Position numbers and translations under genes: made by a program
Notes under the pieces: model-generated
Databases searched by the model: none
What the model was told of the DNA's origin: nothing
What the model saw: only the letters and a program-made list of their open reading frames with translations
Assembly (NCBI RefSeq): GCF_002954405.1
Contig: NZ_MQWC01000004.1
Coordinates: forward strand, 3,164,668 to 3,228,667
Length of the DNA: 64,000 nucleotides
Direction: 5' to 3'
From: Salinibacter sp. 10B
GTDB lineage: Bacteria > Bacteroidota > Rhodothermia > Rhodothermales > Salinibacteraceae
In this document: piece by piece, positions 24,883 to 28,073 of the stretch
Layout: every line of letters begins with the position of its first letter
Numbering within the stretch: position 1 is the first letter of the stretch

Positions 24883-25533
24883 TTACAGGGTGCGGATGAG
24901 GCCGAGCAGTCGACCGATGACGTAGCAGCCCGGATGGTCGGGCGGGAAGGTGTCTTCGGTGTAGTGGCGATCGGCCGGGCGGAGGTGAAGGCGGCCGTTG
25001 GCAAAGTGAAAGGTTCGGGCGAGCAGTTTTGCCTGTACGAGGACAGCCACGAGGGCTCCATTCTCCAGATCAGACCAGTCCATCTCTTCAATTAGAAGCA
25101 GGTCACCTTTCTGAATGGCAGCCCCGTTCATTCCGTCGTCGCCTGCCTGGCCCACCAGGCAGGCGTCCGGGTCGCGGGCCTGACGCAGCAGACGATCGTC
25201 TACCGAGATCGTCCCCTTGGGACGTTCGCGCAGCCGCTCGGGTTGGTCGCTAGCCGTACGACTGATAATCGGAAGGCGCGGCTGCCCGCTCCCCATTCCG
25301 AACGGATCCGAGGTCTCGTCGACCAACTCAATTCCGCGTGCTGCATGTTTTTCTCTCTCGATCCACCCCTTCTTTTCTAGCGCCTGCAGGAGCTTGTAAA
25401 CACCGTTAGTCGACGCAATCCCGAGGGCCTCTCCGATTTCCTGCAGCGTGGGAGGTTTGCGATGCTGGTCCATGTAGCCACGAATGAACTCGTAGGCCTC
25501 ATTCTGGCGCTGGGTGAGGCGATCCTTGGCCAT
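24883..25533 (-). CDS. lexA: LexA-like repressor lacking autocleavage residues
   Basis: The N-terminal 70 residues are a LexA winged helix (LTQRQNEAYEFIRGYM, TLQEIGEALGIASTNGVYKL). The C-terminal half aligns with the LexA/S24 protease domain but has lost its catalytic features. The Ala-Gly cleavage site is replaced (SRTASDQP, residues 91-98). The GDSM-type nucleophile serine region reads GDDGMNGA (131-138). The general-base Lys of TVKR is Ala (LLARTF, A172). The 216-residue length is normal. It should still bind DNA but is unlikely to cleave itself on RecA activation, similar in that respect to cyanobacterial LexA. The ATG at 25533 gives the family N-terminus; a longer frame reaches 25626. 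Candidate operators lie 130-175 bp upstream. Confidence 0.85.
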   Translation of the reverse strand: MAKDRLTQRQNEAYEFIRGYMDQHRKPPTLQEIGEALGIASTNGVYKLLQALEKKGWIEREKHAARGIELVDETSDPFGMGSGQPRLPIISRTASDQPERLRERPKGTISVDDRLLRQARDPDACLVGQAGDDGMNGAAIQKGDLLLIEEMDWSDLENGALVAVLVQAKLLARTFHFANGRLHLRPADRHYTEDTFPPDHPGCYVIGRLLGLIRTL

Positions 25534-25659
25534 GGGAATAGTGGAGAATATGTAACGGAATCGGTATGAAAGCCCCGCGGTCGGCACGGGCACAGACGAG
25601 GGGGAGAGCCTGTCCCCGTCGGACATGTGTAGATAAGGGGAAATGAGAACAGAAGGGAG

Positions 25660-25708
25660 GGTGAAAATGTTTTTACCCCTCAGGAGAAGGTGGTGAACAT
25701 ATTTTCAC
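25660..25708. promoter_or_regulatory. Pair of related palindromes upstream of lexA-like gene
   Basis: GGTGAAAATGTTTTTACC (25660-25677) and GTGAACATATTTTCAC (25693-25708) share GTGAA arms around an A/T-rich core, and their centres are 32 bp apart, about three helical turns. They lie between the lexA-like gene (minus) and the mraZ promoter (plus), so they are candidate sites for the LexA-like repressor. Another palindrome, ATGTGCACAT, lies at 25748-25757. Confidence 0.5.
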
Positions 25709-25811
25709 TTCGGAGGGAGAGGAGGAGGGGAAGCAGGGGAATTCCGCATGTGCACATACTTCGGACATGGAAGGAATGGGCCTGAGAAACGCCATTTAGC
25801 GCCGCTAAACC

Positions 25812-25840
25812 TTGACATTGAGTGCAAGAGCCGTACCTTG
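25812..25840 (+). promoter_or_regulatory. Promoter of the division and cell-wall cluster
   Basis: A consensus TTGACA (25812-25817) is followed after 16 bp by TACCTTG (25834-25840), which resembles the Bacteroidota TAnnTTTG element. The first MraZ box begins at the last base of this element. Confidence 0.65.
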
Positions 25841-25869
25841 TGGATGCGCGTGGGGAATTGTGGGGAATT
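25840..25869 (+). promoter_or_regulatory. MraZ operator: three 10-bp direct repeats
   Basis: GTGGATGCGC, GTGGGGAATT and GTGGGGAATT follow each other with exact 10-bp spacing and each starts with GTGG. This is the known arrangement of MraZ-binding boxes upstream of mraZ, so the cluster is probably autoregulated by MraZ. The boxes start at the downstream edge of the -10-like element. Confidence 0.85.
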
Positions 25870-25946
25870 ATCCCAGACATTCACTCGCGGCTGTTTGCCG
25901 TCCTGTTCATTTATTGCACCCCGCCCCGTATGGTGCCGCTGCGATC

Positions 25947-26387
25947 ATGGTGTTCAAGGGACAGGCTGAATATTCCGTAGACAGCAAGGGGCGGGTTGCC
26001 ATTCCGGCAAAGATGCGGAATGCAATGGCGCCCGAGGCACAGGGGACTTTCACAATTACACGTGGGTTTGAGGAGTGCATTTTCCTATACCCGATGGATC
26101 GGTGGTCGTCGATTGAGGAGGAGATCGGCGAGTTGAACATGTACAATCGCGAGGCTCGTGACTTTATCCGCATCATTATGATGTGGGCCGATGAGGTCTC
26201 GCTCGATGGGCAGGGACGGATCAGCATTCCGAACTCGCTGGTCGAGTTGGCCGGGCTTGACGACACGGCGCTCATTTTGGGGGCGTTCGATCACATTGAA
26301 ATTTGGGATCCTGAACAGTTCGACGAGTATCTCAACGAGCAGCCGTCCGACTACGAGACGCTCGCCGAGCGCGTGATGGGAATGTAA
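25947..26387 (+). CDS. mraZ: Transcriptional regulator MraZ
   Basis: The 146-residue protein has the two SpoVT/AbrB-like repeats of MraZ: EYSVDSKGRVAIPAKMR near the start and EVSLDGQGRISIPNSL in the second half. MraZ binds GTGG repeats upstream of its own gene and tunes the division cluster. The ATG at 25947 begins the family N-terminus MVFKGQ. rsmH follows after 27 bp. Confidence 0.96.
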   Translation: MVFKGQAEYSVDSKGRVAIPAKMRNAMAPEAQGTFTITRGFEECIFLYPMDRWSSIEEEIGELNMYNREARDFIRIIMMWADEVSLDGQGRISIPNSLVELAGLDDTALILGAFDHIEIWDPEQFDEYLNEQPSDYETLAERVMGM

Positions 26388-26414: not shown

Positions 26415-27416
26415 ATGACTGACCCCCACACTCCAGATCATTCGTCCGGCCGCGATGACCCGCTGCGGTACGCAACGGATTTTCACGCGCCCGTTCTTTC
26501 ACATGACGTGCGAACGCGACTTGTGACCAACCCCAGCGGTCGCTATGTAGACGCTACGCTCGGGGGCGGAGGGCACGCCCGCGCTCTTCTCGACGCGTTG
26601 GGGCCGGAGGGGAGCGTTCTCGGCATTGACCGAGATCCCGACGCGCTGGCGACAGCCCGCGACCGCCTCGATACTGAACAAGAGGCCGGCCGCTTCCGGG
26701 CGATTCGGGGCACGTTCGGAGATCTCCAGGCGCTCTTGGAGGCCGAAAAATTCATTCCGATCGATGGGCTCCTGCTGGATCTGGGAGTATCGTCCGAGCA
26801 AATCGACGCGCCCGAGCGCGGGTTCAGCTTTCAGAAGGAGGGGCCGCTCGACATGCGCATGGACCCGAGACAGGGGCTCACTGCACGACGAATCGTCAAC
26901 GATTGGTCGGAGCGCGACCTGCGATCAGTGCTTCGAGAGTATGGGGAAGAGCGGCGCGCTGGTCGAATTGCTCACGCCATTGTGGAGGAGCGCCCCCTCG
27001 AGACGACCCGCGACTTGGCCGATCTTGTGCGTTCGGTCGTGCCTCCGCCCGATGAGGTGAAGACGCTGGCGCGTGTGTTCCAGGGGCTTCGCATTGTCGT
27101 GAATACGGAGCTGGAGGAGTTGGAGGCAGCGCTGCGACAAAGCGTGGAGGTCGTCCGCCCCGGCGGTCGCATCGCCGTCATCAGCTACCATTCGCTGGAG
27201 GACCGGCGGGCAAAGCGCTTCCTTCGGTACGGCAACTTCGACGGGGAGCCTCGCCGCGACCTGTACGGCAATCTGGTGGCGCCCTGGCGAGAGGTCCCTC
27301 GTGGGCCCATTGCGGCTGATGAGGCCGAGGTGGAGGCCAATCCGCGGGCCCGGAGCGCTCATCTCCGCGTTGCCGAGCGGCGCGACGACGAGGAGATGGG
27401 AACGCCCATGCCCTGA
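26415..27416 (+). CDS. rsmH: 16S rRNA (cytosine-1402-N4)-methyltransferase
   Basis: This SAM-dependent enzyme (MraW) methylates C1402 in the ribosomal P site. The 333-residue protein has the family opening [18 protein letters not shown], the SAM loop [42 protein letters not shown] and [14 protein letters not shown]. It is in the usual place after mraZ. The last 30 residues are loosely conserved. Confidence 0.96.
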
Positions 27417-27476: not shown

Positions 27477-28073
27477 ATGAACGATTCCGACAGCATTTTT
27501 CCCGACCCTAACATTCTCTGGAACCAGATCCGCGAGTCCGAACGCACTGCGCCCGACGATCGGCCCGTCGTTCTCGTGGTTGAGGGAGATCCGAGTGTGC
27601 GGATGGTTCTGCGCCATGCTCTGCGCACCGTAGTGCGCACTGATGCTGCCGGTACCGTGGCCGACGCCCTGCGCATGGCCGAGACGGTGCCGTACGATGG
27701 GGTGCTCTTGGATCTGGATTTGCCGGACGGGAACGGAATGGAGGTGGTAGACACGCTGCGCGAGCGGACGCCCTACTGGGGGGTGCCGATGGTGGCCGTG
27801 ACGGCCCACGAGCTGCCTGACGGTCGGGGGCACTTTCTCGAGGCCGGACTCGATGCGTTCGTGGCGAAGCCGTTCGAGAAAGACGAGATTCGTACTCTGG
27901 TACGTCATCTTGTGGTCGCGCCCGACAACGCCGTGGACAGGGGGCGGAAGCTGATCCGGGAAAAGCAAGACCGACAGCCGGCAGAGACGGAAACGGCAGA
28001 AGCGGCCGAAGAAAAGCAGGAGCGCCGGGAAGCTCCTGTTACACAATCCCTGGACGTTTTGTCGGAGCGGTAG
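27477..28073 (+). CDS. Single-domain response regulator inside the division cluster
   Basis: The 198-residue product has one receiver domain at about residues 29-150: VVLVVEGDPSVRMVL (acidic pocket, with Glu-Gly-Asp), phosphoacceptor Asp79 in VLLDLDLPDGNG, Thr in VAVTAHE and Lys in AKPFEKDE. There is no DNA-binding or enzymatic output domain, only a charged tail of about 45 residues. It lies between rsmH and ftsL, where no regulator is usual, and is probably co-transcribed with the cluster. It may act by protein contact on division or wall synthesis, but that is inference. No kinase gene is adjacent. Confidence 0.85.
   Translation: MNDSDSIFPDPNILWNQIRESERTAPDDRPVVLVVEGDPSVRMVLRHALRTVVRTDAAGTVADALRMAETVPYDGVLLDLDLPDGNGMEVVDTLRERTPYWGVPMVAVTAHELPDGRGHFLEAGLDAFVAKPFEKDEIRTLVRHLVVAPDNAVDRGRKLIREKQDRQPAETETAEAAEEKQERREAPVTQSLDVLSER

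Follow-up and report, generated by a model that had tools for sequence, protein, structure and literature searches.

A LexA-type gene that lies divergent to mraZ, at the head of the division cluster (dcw), has lost every residue needed for self-cleavage. We refer to it as lexR, a label coined in this analysis. It lies in a window of 64,000 nucleotides from Salinibacter sp. 10B, and its relatives and their surroundings suggest, with a probability of roughly 65%, that this LexA descendant no longer takes part in the SOS response and is instead a RecA-independent regulator dedicated to the division cluster. To our knowledge, little is known about the regulation of division clusters outside model bacteria. 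LexA-type repressors are normally destroyed upon DNA damage, and if our reading is true, lexR shows that such a repressor can be rebuilt as a stable regulator of a single locus. The proposal is directly testable, with a candidate regulator, mapped putative operators, natural losses of the gene and one natural relocation.

A LexA-type protein with a degenerate protease domain

The lexR gene (24883..25533, reverse strand) encodes 216 amino acids, with a LexA-type helix-turn-helix at residues 5-67 and an S24-type domain at residues 89-209. Both parts matched Pfam above the cut-off (LexA_DNA_bind, PF01726, E 5.7e-19; Peptidase_S24, PF00717, E 6.8e-9), the first in agreement with a preliminary description, made from the sequence alone, that had read the helix-turn-helix as kept. 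Among the 16 Pfam matches there was no CI-type N-terminal domain, the N-terminus being that of PF01726. With the lexA equivalog model TIGR00498, lexR scored 98.3 bits, below the full-length cut-off of 110.95. An AlphaFold2 model from 24 sequences (mean pLDDT 86.5, pTM 0.61) is predicted to have the LexA fold: its best structural match was LexA (3k2z, E 7.3e-16), and its C-terminal domain superposed on 1jhc with a Z of 15.6 and an rmsd of 2.4 over 123 residues.

The residues for cleavage were located by alignment to E. coli LexA, where we take the scissile bond to be Ala84-Gly85 and the catalytic serine to be Ser119. In lexR, these correspond to Ser95-Asp96 and to Gly134 within the motif GDDGM, as the preliminary description had proposed for the cleavage site and for a degenerate serine region. 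The catalytic Lys had been assigned to Ala172; this column aligns without gaps with Arg173, and the call was therefore one residue off.

Orthologs of lexR were present in 35 of 60 genomes, its own included (36 places at E <= 1e-39), and absent from the other 25, several of which are incomplete. We compared 43 lexR-family proteins, among them seven found outside the class and a distant homolog (L074), but not an interrupted lexR (L041), with 33 canonical LexA proteins, 22 of the order and 11 from other classes. The catalytic Ser was found in none of the family (Gly in 40, Ala in two, Thr in one) and in all 33 canonical proteins. The Lys column held Arg in 43/43 lexR-family proteins and Lys in 33/33 canonical ones, and the scissile Ala-Gly was seen in a single family member (L089) as opposed to every canonical LexA. 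By this alignment, a comparison that the preliminary description had called for, the loss of the self-cleavage features is clade-wide. Asp132 is also invariant in the family (43/43), where the 33 canonical rows have Gly; Asp132 and Arg173 stand at former active-site positions and may pair.

A single branch separates the lexR family from canonical LexA, with support of 100/98. This split kept an SH-aLRT value of 95 after removal of the catalytic columns and of the two longest rows, and had one of 76 on the helix-turn-helix alone. Deep placements in these trees are unsure, because long branches meet there. In six close pairs the dN/dS of the C-terminal domain was 0.05-0.16, and a seventh pair was identical in protein sequence. 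These comparisons indicate purifying selection on both domains of lexR. Judged by its residues, the C-terminal domain is dead as a protease, yet it has been retained.

Paired putative operators in the lexR-mraZ gap

A gap of 413 bp separates the lexR start codon, which ends at 25533, from that of mraZ, which begins at 25947. On the forward strand, mraZ (25947..26387; Pfam MraZ, E 2.9e-31) is the first gene of the division cluster and is followed by rsmH (mraW, 26415..27416; Pfam MraW methylase, E 1.6e-92). The gap contains two palindromes of the type GTGA-N8-TCAC (consensus GTGAAAATATTTTCAC), putative operator 1 at 25661..25676 (GTGAAAATGTTTTTAC) and putative operator 2 at 25693..25708 (GTGAACATATTTTCAC), which start 32 bp apart. 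Downstream of the pair lies a likely dcw promoter (25812..25840, forward strand; TTGACA at 25812-25817, TACCTTG at 25834-25840), and then the GTGGGG repeats GTGGGGAATTGTGGGGAATT (25850..25869, forward strand), which resemble MraZ boxes in sequence and which we take to be the MraZ box. The two promoter elements are conserved in an alignment of 29 gaps. The preliminary description had already recorded the two palindromes, their spacing and an MraZ-box promoter in this gap; the palindromes and their spacing were recovered here.

The operator palindromes exceed chance: two sites were found in 29/29 syntenic gaps, compared with 102 of 5800 dinucleotide shuffles. The pair was also present in L091 and L096; L093 and L094 had one site, L092 and L089 none, and these last four of the 35 lexR genomes are without the pair in the GTGA-N8-TCAC form. 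When we searched the 4.75-Mb genome, as suggested in the preliminary description, every match to the palindrome pattern at up to one mismatch fell in the lexR-mraZ gap. Start-to-start spacings of the operators in 31 loci were 32 bp (14 loci), 22 bp (7), 33, 41 and 54 bp (3 each) and 31 bp (1), none of them more than 1.5 bp away from a multiple of 10.5; these rows are related and make up four spacing classes rather than 31 independent cases, and the sites were chosen by our own score. Spacings near whole helical turns fit binding on one face of the DNA. We looked for a -10 element of lexR next to operator 1: five of six matches were reached in 6/29 loci, against about 6% of shuffles, and the best in the window was 3/6, which did not establish a lexR promoter.

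The operator pair is bracketed by two ATATGTG-like elements that point the same way. In the window these are ATGTG on the left (25625..25629, forward strand, 36 bp from operator 1) and ATGTGCACATAC on the right (25748..25759, forward strand, 55 bp from operator 2). Both elements were seen in 23 of 31 loci, and neither in five (L031, L032, L035, L044 and L091). Their distances change in helical steps, the left element lying 25-26 or 33-37 bp from operator 1 and the right one 43-45, 53-56 or 65 bp from operator 2. We considered whether they could be sites of the intact LexA described below, as ATATGT also occurs within the lexA and recA sites of that protein; by eye, however, the flanking elements have no second TGT 11 bp away. 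The sequence TTATCCACA, which we presume to be DnaA-box-like, occurs in the gaps of L040, L042, L043 and L091. Inside the division cluster, between rsmH and an ftsL-like gene, 27477-28073 encodes a protein with a response-regulator receiver domain (Pfam E 1.7e-19).

The gene served by the putative operators

The preliminary description had raised a link to division. This is upheld by synteny, lexR being divergent to mraZ in 34 of 35 lexR genomes (29 of 30 loci and five further ones), and by the behaviour of the operators where lexR has moved. In genome G018, lexR is found on a different contig, where 600 bp of its upstream sequence contain no operators, and mraZ is still preceded by the operator pair, its flanking elements and the dcw promoter; the assembly, a MAG, is fragmented into about 370 contigs, which leaves room for an assembly error. 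In G016, where lexR carries an in-frame TGA, operator 1 is 503 bp from lexR and operator 2 is still 157 bp from the GTGGGG boxes. In G022, from the same genus, the interval between pyrG and mraZ has lost both lexR and the pair and retains the flanking elements and promoter.

Among mraZ upstream regions of genomes without lexR, the operator pair was found in 0/15 and one weak site in 5/15. This control set retained L071, with 235 bp, and left out L074, which has a distant homolog there, and L076 and L084, which have less than 150 bp upstream; seven of the 25 genomes without lexR had no usable mraZ region. Outside the lexR-mraZ gap, no operator site with at most one mismatch was found in eight genomes, of which five have such sites and three (G003, G010 and G037) have gap sites with at least two mismatches. 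Sites with two mismatches elsewhere in the eight genomes numbered five, versus nine matches of a reversed control pattern. Because of G018, G016 and G022, the upstream regions without lexR, the site search and the distances given below, the division-cluster side is the better supported target of the putative operators, and autoregulation of lexR is likely.

The operators are often equally near lexR and mraZ, and the pair could serve lexR autorepression only, with mraZ as a mere neighbour. This explanation would fit the position of operator 1, which in many genomes is 31-75 bp away from the lexR start and would there overlap a promoter, and the persistence of dcw promoters without lexR. However, operator 2 keeps a less variable distance from the GTGGGG boxes (125-168 bp) than operator 1 does from the lexR start (31-148 bp, two displaced cases left out), the relocated lexR of G018 has no operators whereas the pair stayed with mraZ, the synteny with mraZ is nearly complete, and no other target was found in the eight genomes at up to one mismatch. 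We thus consider exclusive autorepression unlikely. Activation of the dcw promoter by lexR bound upstream is a little less probable again: the operators do lie upstream of a conserved dcw promoter at a fairly constant distance, but genomes without lexR and the pair keep the full promoter, and LexA relatives are repressors as a rule. Decay of lexR into a paralog without function would account for the lost catalytic residues, the in-frame stop in G016 and the absence of the gene from 25/60 genomes, several of them incomplete, but is very improbable given the purifying selection on both domains, which rules out a pseudogene, the new invariant residues Asp132 and Arg173, and operators that come and go together with the gene.

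We therefore favour lexR as a dedicated regulator of the division cluster, and propose the following mechanism. Dimers of lexR would bind the two GTGA-N8-TCAC operators, which face the same side of the helix at a distance of about three turns, and from the gap would control mraZ with the division cluster behind it, and probably lexR itself. The protein would most likely act as a repressor or fine tuner, repression being the likelier sign because dcw promoters persist where lexR was lost. Between the pair and the dcw promoter downstream there are about 105-150 bp, so that direct blocking of the promoter is not obvious, and control may be exerted by looping or contact. RecA-stimulated self-cleavage is not expected to switch lexR off; release may instead depend on its level, on a ligand or partner of the degenerate C-terminal domain, or on competition for the DNA.

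Intact LexA, known systems and spread

The genome of Salinibacter sp. 10B (G000, 4.75 Mb) contains a second LexA homolog above the cut-off. This intact LexA (213 amino acids, contig C4, about position 1166934, forward strand) has all cleavage parts, namely ISAG, GQSM and TSLKR. A 15-bp site, GTGTGSAWTATATGT, is common to its own promoter and that of recA, in both without mismatch, as expected of a pattern that was derived from these two promoters; elsewhere in the genome it has no match with one mismatch and one match with two. Upstream of canonical lexA genes of the order, the direct repeat TGT-N8-TGT was found in 16/22 (a raw count without shuffle control), and GTGA-N8-TCAC in 0/22 within about 300 bp. 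The recA upstream regions were scanned for ATGTG, and the absence of lexR-type sites from them comes from the pattern search of the eight genomes.

The preliminary description had supposed that lexR alters the SOS logic of the cell, which these findings do not support; it had itself named a second, intact lexA with SOS sites of its own as an observation that would overturn its reading, and such a gene exists. As an intact LexA exists and shares its promoter site with recA, lexR is not the SOS repressor, and the DNA-damage task appears to stay with the intact LexA elsewhere in the genome. The LexA ancestry of lexR and the adjoining division genes, which could be the target of a checkpoint, would suit a damage-responsive SOS repressor that is released in another way. 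This is highly improbable, both because of the intact LexA with its own site at lexA and recA and because no lexR-type site with at most one mismatch occurs elsewhere in the eight genomes. In this group, a lexA annotation next to mraZ is no reason to assign the gene to the SOS response. By eye, orthologs of the intact LexA in families f10 (L099, L101) and f13 (L098, L100) seem to be without Ala-Gly, Ser and Lys, in what seems to be a second, independent loss of cleavage.

Like canonical LexA (E. coli 1jhf, Thermotoga maritima 3k2z), lexR has the helix-turn-helix followed by an S24 domain with the same fold, finds its best structural matches there and is associated with palindromic operators. 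Unlike it, lexR has no scissile Ala-Gly, Ser or Lys (Arg instead) and falls below the lexA equivalog cut-off. Canonical LexA also has its operators spread over several SOS genes, including recA, whereas in the eight genomes searched lexR-type sites at up to one mismatch are confined to the lexR-mraZ gap. MraZ is itself a local regulator encoded in the division cluster, which acts at repeats by the dcw promoter. There, lexR would be a second local regulator, with a different fold from that of MraZ (Pfam MraZ) and with its own sites further upstream.

In Synechocystis PCC 6803, a non-cleavable LexA is reported to have lost the cleavage site and the Ser-Lys pair, to be out of DNA repair and to take part in various cellular processes (PMC13416735). 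The likeness to lexR is one of residues, our trees having no cyanobacterial row; lexR differs in being a paralog beside an intact LexA and in having its one mapped region at the division cluster. The non-canonical LexA proteins of Bacteroidetes, from the same broad group as lexR, are reported to be S24-type repressors with CI-type N-termini that run the SOS or damage response (PMC8565304); lexR differs from these in its LexA helix-turn-helix and its lack of protease residues. By sequence, lexR, in most of these genomes accompanied by an intact LexA, is of neither the Synechocystis nor the Bacteroidetes type. No report of a LexA paralog adjoining mraZ was found in the literature searched, most subscription papers being outside its reach.

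In a sample of the phylum, the lexR-family profile matched 113/296 genomes, many through canonical LexA. We read 20 of these loci (L201 to L182), picked from the higher-scoring rows and not at random, with L192 and L196 untranslated. Eleven are canonical and have no mraZ in the sequence read; seven adjoin mraZ and are degenerate, with the motifs DDDGM, SDDGM, SDDAM and PDDTM; these seven belong to families f34, f36, f40 and f54, outside the class. Four of the seven have two ACTGAAC-type palindromes 34 bp apart, a spacing 2.5 bp off three turns of 10.5, and no such palindromes were found in the other three (L187, L188 and L199). Within family f3, presumably Rhodothermus from named Rhodothermus loci of similar identity, lexR was the only S24 protein found in genomes G042 and G052, and G028 additionally has a UmuD-like one. 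It is conceivable, if rather doubtful, that lexR is an old LexA branch in which the Ser-Lys pair was swapped for the invariant Asp132/Arg173 and the dead protease domain became a sensor of another signal. Such a branch would be a dedicated division-cluster switch that several classes of one phylum have retained next to mraZ, and in Rhodothermus-like genomes it would be the sole LexA-type protein left.

Two further LexA-type proteins were observed. One, in genome G024, is a second degenerate paralog of the lexR type (motif SDDGM, L090:1168-1803), convergent with dnaA. In G030, a more distant LexA-type protein (motif PDNGM, L074:777-1508) is divergent to mraZ and has its own palindrome, GTGTATTTATATACAC.
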